From: Variovorax paradoxus EPS
GTDB lineage: Bacteria; Pseudomonadota; Gammaproteobacteria; Burkholderiales; Burkholderiaceae_C
Length of the DNA: 64,000 bases
Direction of reading: 5' to 3'
NCBI RefSeq assembly: GCF_000184745.1
Contig: NC_014931.1
Location: 4,712,001 to 4,776,000 of the forward strand
The position numbers and the translations under genes were made by a program. This document shows, one piece after another, positions 34,435 to 53,084 of this stretch. Below the pieces are notes generated by a model. That model was not told where the DNA came from. It was given only the letters and a program-made list of their open reading frames with translations, and made no database searches. Every line of letters begins with the position of its first letter. The first letter of the stretch is position 1.

Positions 34435-34510
34435 GCCGGTGTAGCTCAGTCGGTAGAGCAGCTCATTCGTAATGAGAAGGTCGGGTGTTCGATTCATCTC
34501 TCCGGCACCA
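34435..34510 (+). tRNA. tRNA-Thr (CGT)
   Basis: 76-base cloverleaf: acceptor GCCGGTG, D-arm GCTC...GAGC, loop TTCGTAA with anticodon CGT, T-loop TTCGATT, A73 and encoded CCA. The T stem contains two G-U pairs and the acceptor has one T-T mismatch, so it is less regular than the Asp, Glu and Ala tRNAs. The GC content drops just downstream, making this a possible past insertion point. Confidence 0.93.
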
Positions 34511-34515
34511 AATAG

Positions 34516-34550
34516 AAAGCCCCGCTATTGAAAAATAGCGGGGCTTTTTT
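34516..34550 (+). terminator. Rho-independent terminator of tRNA-Thr
   Basis: Stem AAGCCCCGCTATT/AATAGCGGGGCTT, 13 bp with a tiny A-rich loop, followed by a run of six T. It sits five bases beyond the tRNA CCA end. Confidence 0.92.
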
Positions 34551-34594
34551 CATTACCTCAGATATCTGAACTAACGAATTCGGTCGATTTCTAT

Positions 34595-35443
34595 TTATCG
34601 ATTTTCTTTTGGCTCAATTATCAAAAGCCTCTCGATAAGCTCTTTATTTCTTGTTTGCGCATATTCGCCATAATGAACTTCACGGTGACAGGCGGGACAG
34701 AGAGCCGCGACAAATTGGGGATGATCTGGCCCACCGTCTGAAACACGGGTCGTGTGATGGGGCTCTAAATATGCACTCCCCCCCGTTCGGCGAAACGGAG
34801 CAGACTTCTCGCAAAGCTCGCATATTCCCGAAGCACGGCGCAACACATAGTCGCGAACAATGCGGCTTCGCTCGTAGATCGTTCGACGACCGTGCCTAGT
34901 ATCCTTTGAGGCATCGACTTTTGCTGCGGCAATTGCACGTCGCCTTGCCTCGTCAAGCGTCAAATCGATCAGCGGTTCACTAATTCCCGTTAACTCGTCT
35001 TGCTCAAGTCGCGCTACCGGCACAAGCCGAAAGACAATCGCCTTTCGCATCTTTTTATCCACATCAAGCGCATCAATCCATTCGTGGTCTTGGTAGACAA
35101 ACTCGCCAAGATATTTTTGCCCTTTGCCTTTTCCGATTGTACGGAATAAATGCAGCGCCTTACCTCGCGAGGAATGATCGCGAATAGCGAGATTGCCTCG
35201 CTTAAATAACATGTCTCCCCGCTGTCCTTCTCCGGTAAAAAAGAAAGTTCCATCTTCGTCAAACCGGTCACTGTACCCGTAGCGCTCTCCGCTATCGCCA
35301 GTGAATAAAAAAACAACGAGAAAACGCGCAGATTCGGAAATTCCGCTTTGCCTGCTTCCGCCAAATGGCTCGTGCAACTCCGATTTGCGCCGATAAACCT
35401 TACTCAGGACAAAAGATGGTGCAGCTAAATTTAAATCTGGCAC
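34595..35443 (-). CDS. HNH endonuclease, probable modification-dependent (type IV, McrA-like) restriction enzyme
   Basis: A 282-residue two-domain protein. The GTG start at 35443 follows an excellent GGAGGG site by eight bases. Residues about 15-120 form a recognition-type domain with YRRKSELHEPFGGSRQSGIS, VFLFTGDSGERYGYSDRFDE and FTGEGQRGDMLFKRGNLAIR. I associate this pattern with the SRA-like domain of ScoMcrA-type enzymes that bind modified DNA. The C-terminal HNH domain shows zinc ligands CELC (208-211) and CPAC (249-252), the HH pair of EPHH (229-230) and HREVH (253-257). DNA composition is clearly AT-richer than the surroundings, a sign of transfer. Cleavage of methylated foreign DNA is the likely role. 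Domain naming is from memory and not searched. Confidence 0.82.
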   Translation of the reverse strand: MPDLNLAAPSFVLSKVYRRKSELHEPFGGSRQSGISESARFLVVFLFTGDSGERYGYSDRFDEDGTFFFTGEGQRGDMLFKRGNLAIRDHSSRGKALHLFRTIGKGKGQKYLGEFVYQDHEWIDALDVDKKMRKAIVFRLVPVARLEQDELTGISEPLIDLTLDEARRRAIAAAKVDASKDTRHGRRTIYERSRIVRDYVLRRASGICELCEKSAPFRRTGGSAYLEPHHTTRVSDGGPDHPQFVAALCPACHREVHYGEYAQTRNKELIERLLIIEPKENR

Positions 35444-35505
35444 AGGTTCGTCCCTCCAAGGTGGCGGCTCTTAATCAGCGTTTAGTTTACTATTGGTAAT
35501 ATACC

Positions 35506-35790
35506 TTAACTTGTGTCTCTTGCAAATGGGGAAAAATCTGACGCGCGCATGTTGCACCGCTCACTCACGGCGATAGCAGAGCCCGCCGAAGCCGCCCGCT
35601 TAGCTTTTACATAGTCGACTGGATATTCACACGACAGCGCTCGTTTTGCAAAGGAGCTGGCGGACTGACCAAAGTCCGCTGAAATGGCGTGAAAGATGCA
35701 CCACCTTGCGGTGTGCTGATCTAGAGATTTTCCCGAAAGCGCTATCGCTCTCAGAAAGAGAAATTCAGTGACCTCATATTCGAGGCTCAA
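35506..35790 (-). CDS. small hypothetical protein in the low-GC region
   Basis: A possible 94-residue protein that I do not recognise, MSLEYEVTEFLFLRAIALSG at the start. The only in-frame start before residue 80 is a TTG at 35790 without a clear ribosome site, and two stops lie just upstream. Codon use looks protein-like. It falls between the probable nuclease gene (47 bases upstream) and the HNH gene (62 bases downstream), all on the minus strand, so it would be part of the same unit. It could be an immunity or adaptor protein, or not a gene at all. Confidence 0.35.
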   Translation of the reverse strand: MSLEYEVTEFLFLRAIALSGKSLDQHTARWCIFHAISADFGQSASSFAKRALSCEYPVDYVKAKRAASAGSAIAVSERCNMRASDFSPFARDTS

Positions 35791-35837
35791 AATTCATTAA
35801 GTTAATGTTTTTTTGAGCGGCGAAAAACTTAAACTTA

Positions 35838-37415
35838 CTACGATGATTCGCCTCTAAAAAGAGCGTCCCAGACCTTGCGCCACAAGGGAGGACCGTCGGG
35901 GAATTCACTAATTGAAGTCGCGTGCCACTTCATTGAATCAGACTGCCACATTCCTTGATCTTTTAGAAGCTGTTGAATAATTTCCACCGACTCGGCTACA
36001 AGGTTTTCGTCACGAACAACCATGAGGAGAAAATCCACGGAAATCGTTTTTGTCGAATATGGCTCCATTGCGATGCCAAGAACCTCTTTCAATTGTTGGT
36101 TTTTTAACTTGCACCCTTCACAATAAATCATAAGTTGATGCTGGCGATGCTCACGATAAGCCGCATAAGACATATCAGGCGGTTTCGCTAAAGTCATGAC
36201 CACATACGCCCTTGCACTATCGCGGCGTCCGAAAATTGTTGATGTGAATCGCGCACCTTTCTTCTTCACTTTGCGCGCTCGATCGACAGCCGCCCCAAGG
36301 GTTCGCCGAATGACTCGAGGCTCTTCCGCCATTTTTCGGAGAATCGCTTCTTGCTGCGCTGAGGCTATAAGACCGTCCATCAAATTCGATGAGCCAAGAA
36401 AACCTGACGAGCCAGCCAATATGTGTGAAGTTTGAAATTCGATAAGTTCATCCCATAAATAGCTCACGCGATTTGCTTGTTTACGGCTTCGATATTGCTT
36501 GCTACCTCTTATCTCTTTCCACTCGCCCTCCCCCAGAAGAAAGCTCGCTTCAGCGGGTACATCAGGGAATTTTGGACCGACAGACCCGTATACCAATGAC
36601 GAAAGATAACAGGCAAGAAGATCTTCCTCGCCGGGAATAATAGCGACGCTCGGCTCCATTCTTAAAAAATCTTCTTTTTTTCTTAGATATAGAATGAAAT
36701 CAGGGAGTGTGTCTAATTCGCCTAAAACTATGTCCAGTGTTTCCTCATCGAACACGTGAACCATGTGCGCCCTGCCAAGCGGCCAGCCCACCTGAAAAGG
36801 CGTAGTTTTATGTTCCGCTCCTTCTATATTGGTGCGGATCATCAAACTTCCTGAACTGGGTCCGGATTTGCTCTCGAAAAGCTCGCCCACCTCAGCTAGC
36901 TCTCTCGCCTTTTCCTGCCAATATTTGGCGGCGTGCTCAGCGGCACCTTTTGCAACAGCGATTAAATGAATTCGACTGTTTTTTAATTCCGGCAGCGATA
37001 TCGGAAGTCTATACTCACATTGACGATCGAGATAAATCCGATTTGAATAGCGAATAATCCAAGATTTCGCGCCGGCCAATTGATTGGCCGATTTCTCTAT
37101 TGCACGCTTGTACCAGCGCGCCCAAGCCACGTTAATGTCGGCGCATGGTTTGAATTCGCACTGCTTATCCGAAAAAATTAGGATGTCGTTGCCAAAGACG
37201 ACCAATAGATCGCAAAGCTCCTTGCCGTCGCCTTTGCCCTTGCTTCTCCCTTCGTCCGTAAACACATTTGGATAGCTCCAAAGCGTCAGGAAGGCCCTCC
37301 GCGCTAGGGCCGTCAGATAGCGTTCAGAGCTCGTTTGAGAATCACCGATCAGGGCTTTGTGCCACGCACTCAATGGAGTTTCCGGCGGCAGGTCGGCGAA
37401 TGGCAGTGATCTCAT
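35838..37415 (-). CDS. uncharacterised protein with possible PD-(D/E)XK nuclease motif
   Basis: A 525-residue protein from the ATG at 37415 (552 from a TTG at 37496). I do not recognise a named family. Near the N-terminus GKELCDLLVVFGNDILIFSD is followed by KQCEF. This gives an acidic residue (Glu66, Asp69) before a hydrophobic strand and then Ser-Asp-Lys (82-84), as in PD-(D/E)XK nucleases. A helix with AWARWYKRAIEKSANQLAGA follows, as such folds often have. The remaining 380 residues hold no motif I can name; a Lys/Arg-rich stretch (AVDRARKVKKKGARFTSTIF) and a late CEGCKLKNQQ are notable. It is low in GC and lies upstream of the HNH gene on the same strand. A role in defence is inferred from company and composition. 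Confidence 0.75.
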   Translation of the reverse strand: MRSLPFADLPPETPLSAWHKALIGDSQTSSERYLTALARRAFLTLWSYPNVFTDEGRSKGKGDGKELCDLLVVFGNDILIFSDKQCEFKPCADINVAWARWYKRAIEKSANQLAGAKSWIIRYSNRIYLDRQCEYRLPISLPELKNSRIHLIAVAKGAAEHAAKYWQEKARELAEVGELFESKSGPSSGSLMIRTNIEGAEHKTTPFQVGWPLGRAHMVHVFDEETLDIVLGELDTLPDFILYLRKKEDFLRMEPSVAIIPGEEDLLACYLSSLVYGSVGPKFPDVPAEASFLLGEGEWKEIRGSKQYRSRKQANRVSYLWDELIEFQTSHILAGSSGFLGSSNLMDGLIASAQQEAILRKMAEEPRVIRRTLGAAVDRARKVKKKGARFTSTIFGRRDSARAYVVMTLAKPPDMSYAAYREHRQHQLMIYCEGCKLKNQQLKEVLGIAMEPYSTKTISVDFLLMVVRDENLVAESVEIIQQLLKDQGMWQSDSMKWHATSISEFPDGPPLWRKVWDALFRGESS

Positions 37416-37430
37416 TCGGCGAATCGTAGC

Positions 37431-37456
37431 CTTCAGCCGCGTCAAAGTGGCTGAAG
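37431..37456. promoter_or_regulatory. Inverted repeat upstream of the candidate nuclease gene
   Basis: Perfect 8-bp arms CTTCAGCC ... GGCTGAAG with ten bases between, 16 bases before the ATG of the 525-residue protein. If the TTG start is right it would lie inside the gene. It could be an operator or a translation-controlling hairpin. Confidence 0.4.
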
Positions 37457-37515
37457 GCCGATGAAGGCGTTTCCGATCGAAAGATCGCTCGGCCAATCAA
37501 TCTCTGCGGACGCCG

Positions 37516-37767
37516 CTAGGCGTTTTTCAATTCCACTCGAGGCAGCAGTCGCTCAACGTCCTCTGCAAGGTCCGCGGCAATCCACATGATGTTGCCCCGA
37601 TGCTCCGCCCCAATCGCCTCAAACAGTTCCTGCTCTTCCCCATAGCAGCAGTGCAGCAGCGACCTCAGCTGGGTCAACTTGTTCTCAAGAATGTCTTTCG
37701 CGTCCTGCGCTGAGGTTGTGTCGGCGGAGGTGGGCGTGTTCTGCCCGGCGATAATTTGATCAGCCAT
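37516..37767 (-). CDS. small hypothetical protein (83 residues)
   Basis: An 83-residue acidic protein starting MADQIIAGQNTPTSADTTSA, with the sequence LHCCYGEEQELFEAIGAEHR in the middle and ending LLPRVELKNA. It looks helical and soluble. Small proteins of this general type (DUF3077-like) are common near phage or island edges, but I cannot assign the family. It is 19-100 bases upstream of the candidate nuclease gene, depending on its start, on the same strand and could be its regulator or partner. Confidence 0.65.
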   Translation of the reverse strand: MADQIIAGQNTPTSADTTSAQDAKDILENKLTQLRSLLHCCYGEEQELFEAIGAEHRGNIMWIAADLAEDVERLLPRVELKNA

Positions 37768-38061
37768 TGATGTGCTCGCTTTCCAAAGTTAGTGCACGTT
37801 GATTGGTCAGACGGCCATGGTGTTAGCGCACCTTGGCCGTCGCCTTTTCTGCCTCACATCGACATCGCTGCGGTGTGCATTTCGATGTCCCGCCGTGAGG
37901 CGCGGCGGTCGACAAATATACGAACAGAAGCGCTTCAACGGAGCGCTTGTGCGGCGAGCAAATCGCGCATCGCGCCAACTTTGCCCACATCGGCAAACCA
38001 AAACAAAATGCCCTCTGTCTCGGCATGGGTCGCGGCAATAAATCGGCAATGAATCGACGAC
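37768..38061. other. Intergenic stretch at the right edge of the low-GC region
   Basis: 294 bases without a convincing gene. It holds an inverted repeat GACGGCCA ... TGGCCGTC (37810-37841) followed on the plus strand by GCCTTTTC, which looks like a terminator although no plus-strand gene ends here. The divergent promoters of the 83-residue gene and the XRE gene must also lie here. GC content rises back to the genome level within it, so it marks the end of the atypical segment. Confidence 0.6.
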
Positions 38062-38637
38062 ATGCAAGACCCCGTCATCACCATCACCACCCCCGCCACT
38101 CAACCTCAATTGGGCGCGGCGCTGAAGCGTTGGCGCCTGCTGCATCGCGTGAAGCAATCGCACGCGGCCGAGCTCTTCAACGTCAATCAATCGACCATCT
38201 CGCGCTGGGAGTCCGGCACGCAGGCGATGGAGCCCGCCGAGCGCGCACGTGCCGAGGCGCTGTTGTCGGCGCGGCTCGATGCGGCCGCCGACCATGCGCT
38301 GGCCAGGCTGGTCAACGAGAGCCCGCGGCCGGTGCATCTGGTGTGCGACATCACGCATCGCCTGCTGGCCTCGTCCGCGCGCAGGGCCGCCGAGTTCGGC
38401 GCGCCGCTCTCGCTGCTCTTGGGCCGCTCGCTCTGGCGCTATGCCACGCCGGAGATCGCGGGCAAGGAGGCGATGCTCGACGGCATCGGCTGGCGCGATG
38501 CGCTCGCGCCGCCCTCGCTGGAGTTCGCGACGGGCACCAACAGTTCGCAGCTCGTGCCCATTGCGCAGAGCCGTTGCCGGTGGACGCGGCTCACGCTGTC
38601 CGATGGGACATCGGCGCGGTTGGTCGAAACGCTTTAG
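38062..38637 (+). CDS. XRE-family transcriptional regulator
   Basis: A 191-residue regulator. The N-terminal helix-turn-helix reads LGAALKRWRLLHRVKQSHAA, then ELFNVNQSTISRWESGTQ (about residues 18-55). The C-terminal part (PRPVHLVCDITHRLLASSAR onward) resembles a small sensory domain. It lies 55 bases before the MFS exporter gene in the same direction and probably controls it. High GC again, so it belongs to the core genome side of the junction. Confidence 0.88.
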   Translation: MQDPVITITTPATQPQLGAALKRWRLLHRVKQSHAAELFNVNQSTISRWESGTQAMEPAERARAEALLSARLDAAADHALARLVNESPRPVHLVCDITHRLLASSARRAAEFGAPLSLLLGRSLWRYATPEIAGKEAMLDGIGWRDALAPPSLEFATGTNSSQLVPIAQSRCRWTRLTLSDGTSARLVETL

Positions 38638-52350: not shown

Positions 52351-52424
52351 TGGAGGCGCGGCCCGGAGTCGAACCGGGCTGGACGGATTTGCAATCCGTT
52401 GCATGGCCACTTTGCTACCGCGCC
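52351..52424 (-). tRNA. tRNA-Cys (GCA), last gene of the tRNA array
   Basis: 74-base cloverleaf: acceptor GGCGCGG/CCGCGCC, loop ATTGCAA with anticodon GCA, T-arm CCCGG-TTCGACT-CCGGG, discriminator T73 and encoded CCA. T73 is the expected identity base for tRNA-Cys. It is the most regular member of the array. Confidence 0.93.
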
Positions 52425-52446
52425 GAAGATTCAATGCATGAGTGAG

Positions 52447-52530
52447 TGGTGGATCGTCTTCGAGTCGAACGAAGTATTCCGAAGAGGCGGGGTTACAGCC
52501 CGCTGCAGTCGCCAGTGCTGCTCACGATCC
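52447..52530 (-). tRNA. tRNA-Tyr (GTA) in the array
   Basis: 84-base class II cloverleaf: perfect 7-bp acceptor GGATCGT/ACGATCC, D-stem GCAG/CTGC, anticodon stem GCGGG/CCCGC with loop CTGTAAC (anticodon GTA). A variable arm of about 12 bases is followed by T-arm CTTCG-TTCGACT-CGAAG, A73 and encoded CCA. It is easy to miss because its body is atypical. Confidence 0.88.
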
Positions 52531-52548
52531 AGATGAAAGTTGTATGTG

Positions 52549-52624
52549 TGGCGTTCCGCAGGGGAGTCGAACCCCTGGCTTCCTCCGAGACAGGGAGGCA
52601 CTCTGGCCACTGAGTTAGCGGAAC
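52549..52624 (-). tRNA. tRNA-Asp (GTC), divergent copy in the array
   Basis: 76-base cloverleaf: acceptor GTTCCGC/GCGGAAC, D-stem ACTC/GAGT, anticodon stem CCTCC/GGAGG with loop CTGTCTC (anticodon GTC), T-arm AGGGG-TTCGACT-CCCCT, G73 and encoded CCA. G73 and C38 agree with aspartate identity. Outside the universally conserved positions it shares little with the housekeeping tRNA-Asp at 4857-4933. Confidence 0.88.
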
Positions 52625-52637
52625 GAAGAGAAAAAAA

Positions 52638-52713
52638 TGGCAGGCCCTCAAGGGTTCGAGTCTTGGATGCCGGGATCAAAACCCGGTGCCTTGGGCCTCT
52701 AGGCGAAGGGCCA
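52638..52713 (-). tRNA. tRNA-Gln (TTG) in the array
   Basis: 76-base cloverleaf: D-stem GCCT/AGGC, anticodon stem CCGGG/CCCGG with loop TTTTGAT (anticodon TTG), G73 and encoded CCA. The 1-72 position is a T-T mismatch; a weak first pair is a known feature of glutamine tRNAs. The T-loop reads TCGAACC within an irregular T-arm, so this gene is less well formed than its neighbours. Confidence 0.78.
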
Positions 52714-52721
52714 TCAAATGC

Positions 52722-52797
52722 TGGAGCCTCGTGTGGGATTCGAACCCACGATCTTCGGGATGAAAACCCGATGTCCTGGCCGCTAGACGAACGAGAC
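52722..52797 (-). tRNA. tRNA-Glu (TTC), divergent copy in the array
   Basis: 76-base cloverleaf: acceptor GTCTCGT/ACGAGGC, D-stem GTCT/GGAC, anticodon stem TCGGG/CCCGA with loop TTTTCAT (anticodon TTC), T-arm GTGGG-TTCGAAT-CCCAC, T73 and encoded CCA. The housekeeping tRNA-Glu at 5003-5078 has G73 and a different acceptor and anticodon stem. Confidence 0.9.
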
Positions 52798-52812
52798 GAT
52801 GAAAGAAAAAGA

Positions 52813-52888
52813 TGGCGCGCCCGGAAGGATTCGAACCTTCAACCGCTGGGTTTGGAGTCCAGTGCTCTGCCAGTTGAGCTACACACGC
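52813..52888 (-). tRNA. tRNA-Trp (CCA) in the array
   Basis: 76-base cloverleaf: acceptor GCGTGTG/CGGGCGC with one G-G mismatch, D-stem GCTC/GAGC, anticodon loop CTCCAAA (anticodon CCA) with one mismatched stem pair, T-arm GAAGG-TTCGAAT-CCTTC, G73 and encoded CCA. The mismatches suggest relaxed selection. Confidence 0.85.
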
Positions 52889-52905
52889 GTGAATGAAAAA
52901 AAGAA

Positions 52906-52983
52906 TGGTCTGAGTGGCAGGATTTGAACCTGCAGCCTCCTGCTTCCAAGGCAGGCCGTCTACCAGATTGACACTACACCCAG
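52906..52983 (-). tRNA. tRNA-Pro (TGG) in the array
   Basis: 78-base cloverleaf: acceptor CTGGGTG/CACTCAG (C1-G72 as in proline tRNAs), anticodon stem CCTGC/GCAGG with loop CTTGGAA (anticodon TGG), T-arm GCAGG-TTCAAAT-CCTGC, A73 and encoded CCA. The D-arm is somewhat long and irregular. Confidence 0.85.
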
Positions 52984-53007
52984 AGAAAAATCAAACACTA
53001 AAAAGGT

Positions 53008-53084
53008 TGGTGCCCCAGGGGAGATTCGAACTCCCAGAATTCCGCTTCTAAGGCGGACACGTATGCCGGTTCCGTCACCGGGGC
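53008..53084 (-). tRNA. tRNA-Leu (TAG) with a short variable arm, first gene of the array
   Basis: 77-base cloverleaf: acceptor GCCCCGG/CTGGGGC (one G-T pair), anticodon stem TCCGC/GCGGA with loop CTTAGAA (anticodon TAG, reading CUA), T-arm GGGAG-TTCGAAT-CTCCC, A73 and encoded CCA. The D-arm is leucine-like (GGAACCGGCATACG). Only five bases (ATTCT) stand between anticodon stem and T stem, whereas bacterial tRNA-Leu normally has a long variable arm. Confidence 0.85.

Follow-up and report, generated by a model that had tools for sequence, protein, structure and literature searches.

What occupies the stretch of unusually AT-rich DNA directly behind a tRNA-Thr gene in Variovorax paradoxus EPS, and do the genes in it act together against phages? 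Variovorax is a genus largely associated with soil and plants, and the window analysed here (the whole stretch of 64,000 nucleotides, positions 4,712,001 to 4,776,000 of contig NC_014931.1, assembly GCF_000184745.1) sits in a 6.55-Mb single-contig genome. A first-pass annotation, made from the letters alone, had suggested that four genes behind fbp and tRNA-Thr may form one anti-phage module: those for a 282-residue HNH endonuclease, a 94-residue protein, a 525-residue protein (hereafter BIG) and an 83-residue protein. We find that the locus is a real site of a known kind, a defence hotspot, and that it holds a type IV enzyme of rather ordinary type together with a member of an unnamed, widespread candidate defence family. 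Our favoured reading as a whole, to which we assign a rough probability of 0.62, is a hotspot with two independent cargo genes here, of which BIG is likely a solo anti-phage or anti-plasmid gene.

The fall in GC content after tRNA-Thr and its probable terminator was confirmed: values lie at 0.43-0.52 between about 34.5 and 37.5 kb. In windows of 2.9 kb the segment has a GC fraction of 0.489, against a mean of 0.653 (standard deviation 0.023, minimum 0.591) for 552 windows placed in the rest of the 64 kb. GC at third codon positions (GC3) follows the same division, with 0.452 for the HNH gene and 0.485 for the BIG gene as against 0.86-0.92 for the fbp, pepN, XRE and PTA-like genes; the gene for the 83-residue protein is intermediate between cargo and flanking genes at 0.714. 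The low-GC segment is cargo of foreign origin, and the site behind fbp/tRNA-Thr that holds it is variable. Its proposed start at about 34.5 kb stands, and its end has to be moved from 37.8 kb to about 37.5 kb because the 83-residue gene is a border gene and not part of the insert.

This conclusion comes from the same site in other members of the genus. Some 15 kb behind fbp were fetched from 60 of the 97 fbp-bearing Variovorax genomes, taken down the score list with four (G099, G029, G016 and G063) passed over, and tRNA-Thr was present in all 60. The 83-residue protein lies on the far side in 28 of them; behind its gene a relative of the XRE regulator follows at about 270-790 bp in 10 of these 28, and some flank gene (XRE, MFS or PTA-like) in 17. 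In 10 further sites no flank can be recognised before the PTA-like gene (the border of G027 being a weak match), so that both borders are visible in 38 of the 60 sites. The other 22 were left out, as no far border came into view over the roughly 15 kb (in one of them the contig breaks off after 481 bp). Across the 38 the gap ranges from 95 bp to 12.5 kb. Two sites, in G020 and G055, are empty, with only 173 and 178 bp from the tRNA to the end of the 83-residue gene; both retain the terminator hairpin and the 83-residue gene, which for this reason is assigned to the border. The earlier expectation of an acquired segment with empty counterparts in related genomes was thus borne out. The interval between fbp/tRNA-Thr and the 83-residue/XRE genes, with its conserved flanks, variable occupancy and empty versions, is a defence-gene hotspot of Variovorax.

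The cargo at the other Variovorax sites is largely made up of restriction-type genes and includes several kinds of defence gene. Among 115 of the 138 cargo open reading frames (ORFs; those of at least 130 residues), the leading Pfam matches were C5 methylases (12), ResIII (9), SLFN-g3 (7), AspBHI (7), Vsr (7), Mrr_cat (7) and HNH (6). A separate survey of genomes for Shedu (SduA_C) placed it in 4 of 100. To this extent the reading of the segment as a defence island holds, the site being variable and its cargo elsewhere rich in restriction and defence genes, whereas the notion of a single four-gene unit does not. Comparable hotspots with variable defence cargo, conserved flanks and empty versions are described in reports on Pseudomonas aeruginosa (cDHS1/2) and Escherichia coli (PMC10250203, PMC10121019); the Variovorax site differs in genus and position, in inserts of at most 12.5 kb (38 bordered sites) and in the prominence of restriction-type genes. 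No paper on this Variovorax site was found among the matches listed by searches of open-access full texts that name the genus. Two further kinds of cargo recur. Five hotspots carry a pair consisting of a probably MazG-like protein of 137-161 residues and a probable SLFN-g3 helicase of 625-633 residues (L117:3746-6038, L120:7090-9382, L123:1555-3847, L160:1378-3670 and L124:3709-6073), a candidate two-gene defence module whose large partner also stands alone in two more hotspots (G061 and G079). A second kind of HNH protein, 332-373 residues long where intact, occupies the same place in G003, G023, G031, G032 and G069.

How, then, is the site refilled? An element integrated into the tRNA gene and bounded by att repeats was considered and rejected: there is no integrase gene among the ORFs of the insert, and no exact repeat of 10 or more bases was found to be shared by the tRNA region and the right border. 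The lack of both therefore makes recombination through the conserved flanks the likeliest route of exchange, and we suppose that the hotspot is probably refilled in this manner.

The first of the two cargo genes encodes what looks like a modification-dependent SRA-HNH type IV restriction enzyme similar to McrA and ScoMcrA, in keeping with the earlier description of an HNH endonuclease with a probable modified-DNA recognition domain. Its 282-residue product contains an HNH domain (PF01844; E 1.8e-5, 25.2 bits against a cut-off of 21.4), matches the PADLOC type IV restriction model mREase_IV (E 4.4e-20) and aligns over its HNH half with E. coli McrA (6ghc, E 6.4e-19). Residues 13-149 match the SRA part of ScoMcrA weakly (5zmn, E 0.0018, with domain 1 of 5zmm as a second chain). 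Relatives of the protein carry a precomputed PF26348 domain, which we take to be a ScoMcrA-like SRA domain. As candidates for the catalytic H-N-H residues and the zinc cysteines, HH 229-230, H253, C208, C211, C249 and C252 are invariant in seven full-length hotspot relatives, but the position of the HNH asparagine is a glutamine here, and the relatives mostly have Q, K, R or H there. The limits of the ScoMcrA constructs place the 5zmn match after the sulfur-binding domain (PMC6224610). Compared with the known enzymes TagI, ScoA3IV, ScoMcrA and McrA, the protein resembles McrA in its HNH half and ScoMcrA in its SRA part; it differs in lacking the sulfur-binding domain, in an N-terminal half unlike that of McrA and in the glutamine just mentioned. 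By homology, recognition of a modified cytosine in incoming DNA would fall to the SRA half, and cleavage nearby to the HNH half. The SRA-HNH enzyme TagI is reported to cut DNA with 5-methylcytosine (5mC) or 5-hydroxymethylcytosine (5hmC) and to spare DNA with glucosylated 5hmC (PMC6212794), and a preference for 5hmC DNA is likewise reported for ScoMcrA (PMC7461809).

Two tests bear on this reading. No C5 methylase was matched in the genome of strain EPS itself at E 1e-10. At the 38 hotspots HNH-type genes occur at 12 sites and C5 methylases at 11, with none shared (P 0.006; the count does not include an additional HNH match that lies past the border gene in G092). The HNH proteins at five of these 12 sites are those of the second kind noted above, which resemble the enzyme of the window in little beyond the HNH domain. 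That HNH genes and C5 methylases avoid each other is suggestive, the statistics taking no account of relatedness among genomes. A single relative of the HNH protein, a weak one, was found in viral contigs.

The second cargo gene is the novel part of the segment, as had been supposed: no model of Pfam, PADLOC (2023) or NCBIfam (2026) matches BIG at E 1, and profile searches of the PDB gave one chance-level match (E 0.3) with one family alignment (A1) and none at E 10 with another (A5). It nevertheless belongs to a large family, with at least 1,196 relatives at E 0.001; the 120 relatives among the matches listed carry no precomputed Pfam domain. These and the following numbers for BIG are lower bounds because the locus search used two patterns and the protein search scored 8,000 candidates only. 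Distribution is patchy: BIG occurs in 5 of 101 Variovorax genomes. In the order as a whole it was matched in 4 of 300 genomes, of which one is the present genome, two give remote split matches and one a 37-residue fragment. By GTDB classification, 65 BIG loci are spread over alpha-, beta- and gammaproteobacteria, Myxococcales, Acidobacteria, Chloroflexi, Bacteroidetes, Nitrospinota and several candidate phyla. Plasmid records with BIG number 140, of which 90 are conjugative, whereas no phage record was matched; a near-identical IncN form is present in 21 of 5,426 E. coli genomes, on a plasmid every time, and the single IncN record examined has a cytosine methylase and a type II restriction enzyme close to it. 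Enterobacterial plasmid proteins named 'SEC-C metal-binding domain-containing' or 'YecA family' are relatives that align over about 89% of BIG with an identity of about 30%. Unlike BIG they carry a terminal SEC-C motif, to which alone their names refer; it is present in 10 of 65 aligned members. Literature searches aimed at the SEC-C motif and at three protein accessions showed nothing on BIG relatives. DefensePredictor is reported to have revealed 42 new systems, many with PD-(D/E)XK domains, and its main text contains neither 'SEC-C' nor 'YecA'; BIG may yet be among its candidates (PMC13092281).

If BIG is a defence gene its relatives should lie among defence genes, a check which the first-pass annotation had itself proposed. 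We scanned 229 neighbouring ORFs (at least 140 residues, at most two per side, less than 3.5 kb away; gene calls for the relatives are simple ORF picks, and L065 yields no neighbours because no BIG ORF was picked there), and compared them with 110 control ORFs. These come from 20 stretches, each of 8 kb, in Variovorax and elsewhere in its order, so that the genomes behind the control are less varied than those with the BIG loci. At E 1e-10 the two neighbour scans, of 104 and 125 proteins, gave matches to 277 and 133 PADLOC families, the 110 control genes to 7, these tallies being of families and not of genes. BIG neighbours are richer in defence genes than control genes. The matches named, which are the first 25 families listed, include HamA/HamB, pAgo, AbiEii, GajB, type III restriction, CBASS-type effectors and methylases; mad3, mad8 and AriA appear in the control too and are therefore background. 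Ten genes directly adjoining BIG, chosen by hand from 10 of the 66 loci, gave four strong PADLOC matches (STK_OB, an LmuB-like protein, a RTasHel/GajB-type helicase and a PDC-M48B/LmuA-type protein) and one weak one. Integrases account for 6 of the 229 neighbours by Pfam. The commonest neighbour cluster occurs in only 5 of 66 loci, and BIG has no fixed partner. Neither uniform presence of the genes in related genomes nor a family that never occurs near defence genes, the two outcomes named beforehand as refuting the proposed defence island, was found. As an observation in its own right, we note a 1,223-residue protein beside the BIG copy (63% identical) of V. paradoxus ISL-79, with no Pfam match at 1e-6 and no PADLOC match at 1e-10, and a 1,706-residue relative of it near BIG in Caballeronia (L003:1737-5408; L027:16254-21374).

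What might such a protein do? The possible PD-(D/E)XK motif noted earlier in BIG stays at the level of a hint. Invariant across 65 aligned members are E66, D69, F81, D83, W98, R100 and W101; S82, K84 and Q112 are held in 63. The pattern E-x2-D...F-S-D-K bears a suggestive resemblance to a PD-(D/E)XK core; by eye, D69 and S82-D83-K84 stand as far apart as D and E-x-K do in NERD sequences, and the hhalign path follows the same register. The motif as usually written, a conserved D and then [DE]-x-K, is not found, the second element being S-D-K or F-D-R. Comparison by hhalign with AspBHI/Mrr and with Vsr (0.1% each) was not significant, and Pfam NERD matched one of the 65 members below threshold (E 0.057) and the window's protein not at all. 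With profile comparisons non-significant, the nuclease-like core is therefore read from the pattern. BIG further differs from NERD and other PD-(D/E)XK nucleases in the serine that replaces D/E and in a long C-terminal part without a known domain. Two divergent relatives (L063 and L072) have F-D-R for S-D-K and T for Q112, and both end in a SEC-C-like motif.

The solo occurrence of BIG makes a stand-alone sensor-effector the simplest model that fits. In such a model the C-terminal part may sense a trigger and thereby release the nuclease-like N-terminal domain. Judged on sequence and context, BIG is most likely a stand-alone anti-phage or anti-plasmid protein. We regard a defence function as probable, and nuclease chemistry as a tentative assignment that could well prove wrong. 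Somewhat short of an even chance, in our estimate, is the bolder proposal that BIG founds a new, broad family of single-gene immunity, with a variant, nuclease-like S-D-K core, a novel sensing C-terminus and sometimes a SEC-C zinc knuckle, protecting bacteria and conjugative plasmids without a partner.

A number of our own results weigh against the favoured reading. The avoidance of C5 methylases by HNH genes weakens to P 0.07 with only the 7 full-length SRA-HNH sites, and over whole genomes the comparison stands at 1 of 8 versus 41 of 93 (one-sided P 0.08, two-sided 0.13). For BIG, PADLOC family counts overstate gene counts, a single helicase matching 50 families, and annotation of the K. aerogenes plasmid around the relative L176 gives metabolic and resistance genes and no defence gene. 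Five of the ten adjoining genes have no PADLOC match at 1e-5, as would be expected if BIG were cargo that builds up in variable regions and has no role in immunity, and the Pfam lists of its neighbours do include integrases, transposases and metabolic genes; yet the acidic/lysine pattern is strongly conserved in distant phyla and defence genes are enriched over the control, and such idle cargo is in our view improbable. On the chemistry, hhalign gave BIG against NERD a probability of 0.3%, no better than unrelated sets, and a local NERD profile brought no member above its inclusion threshold while some unrelated neighbours scored higher. The D/E position is a serine in 63 of 65 members, with F-D-R in two, which would suit a non-catalytic binder with a degenerate core; the invariance of E66, D69 and D83 in all 65, and of K84 and Q112 in 63, argues against decay, and we hold a binder of this sort to be improbable as well.

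Alternatively, BIG might be a factor for plasmid or island maintenance or for competition, e.g., against other plasmids, and not anti-phage. The 140 plasmid records (90 conjugative) with no phage record, the plasmid location in 21 of 21 E. coli carriers of the IncN form, and the recombinases and integrases near several copies would all fit; many chromosomal copies, however, adjoin known anti-phage genes, and we consider the maintenance role unlikely. Could BIG and the HNH enzyme still be one two-gene system, e.g., with the HNH protein recognising a modified base and BIG making a second cut or a back-up response? The genes share a strand, are 394 bp apart and have similar GC3; for two proteins, P0003 (BIG, 73%) and P0123 (HNH, 79%), the longest contig is given as 44,662 bases in each case, and they may lie together; and at L058 an HNH relative (E 7.6e-7) directly precedes BIG. 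That locus, though, has the opposite gene order and is the only one of 66 with a relative of the window's HNH protein nearby, and HNH-type genes occur without BIG at 11 other hotspots (6 full-length), all of which renders a two-gene system distinctly improbable. The four-gene module of the first-pass annotation is rejected: the 83-residue gene is a border gene found at empty sites, the 94-residue ORF showed no relative, and the HNH gene and BIG are mostly found apart and travel independently. That ORF, which had been taken for a small gene, is probably not one: a search of 5.8 billion proteins brought up no relative, nor did 199 further genomes from the family.

The features of the segment and its borders are collected in Table 1. 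The BIG ORF can also start at 37496. Among non-coding RNAs in this piece of the window the tRNA alone reached its Rfam gathering score; 3 promoter-like and 6 terminator-like sites were counted, as against 3.3 and 4.5 in shuffles. Elsewhere in the window, at 52351-53084 on the minus strand, eight tRNA genes (Cys, Tyr, Asp, Gln, Glu, Trp, Pro and Leu) are clustered.

Table 1. Features at the variable site behind fbp/tRNA-Thr, in window coordinates
Feature	Position	Strand	Evidence
tRNA-Thr (CGT), left border of the variable site	34435..34510	+	ARAGORN; Rfam RF00005, 61 bits; present in 60/60 sites fetched
Hairpin and T run (T run on + strand), probable terminator behind the tRNA	34516..34547	+	Sequence; 14-pair stem in scan
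Putative SRA-HNH (McrA/ScoMcrA-like) type IV restriction endonuclease gene, 282 aa, cargo gene 1	34595..35443	-	PF01844, PADLOC mREase_IV, 6ghc, 5zmn
94-aa ORF, TTG start, probably not a gene	35506..35790	-	No relative found
BIG, 525-aa protein of unnamed family, cargo gene 2, candidate solo defence gene	35838..37415	-	Family and neighbourhood analyses
83-aa gene, chromosomal border gene	37516..37767	-	Present in 28/60 sites, including empty ones
XRE-type regulator gene, right flank	38062..38637	+	HTH_31 E 4.5e-5, just below the Pfam cut-off

For Variovorax, the hotspot represents a slot in which defence genes get swapped. If this is true, the hotspot would also allow the mutual exclusion of 5mC-dependent restriction enzymes and C5 methylases to be tested. 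BIG is the best lead at the site, a family that reaches many phyla and conjugative plasmids, also in E. coli, and for which Pfam, NCBIfam (2026) and PADLOC (2023) hold no model. Were BIG alone to protect cells, it would be a simple immune gene whose action is directly testable.

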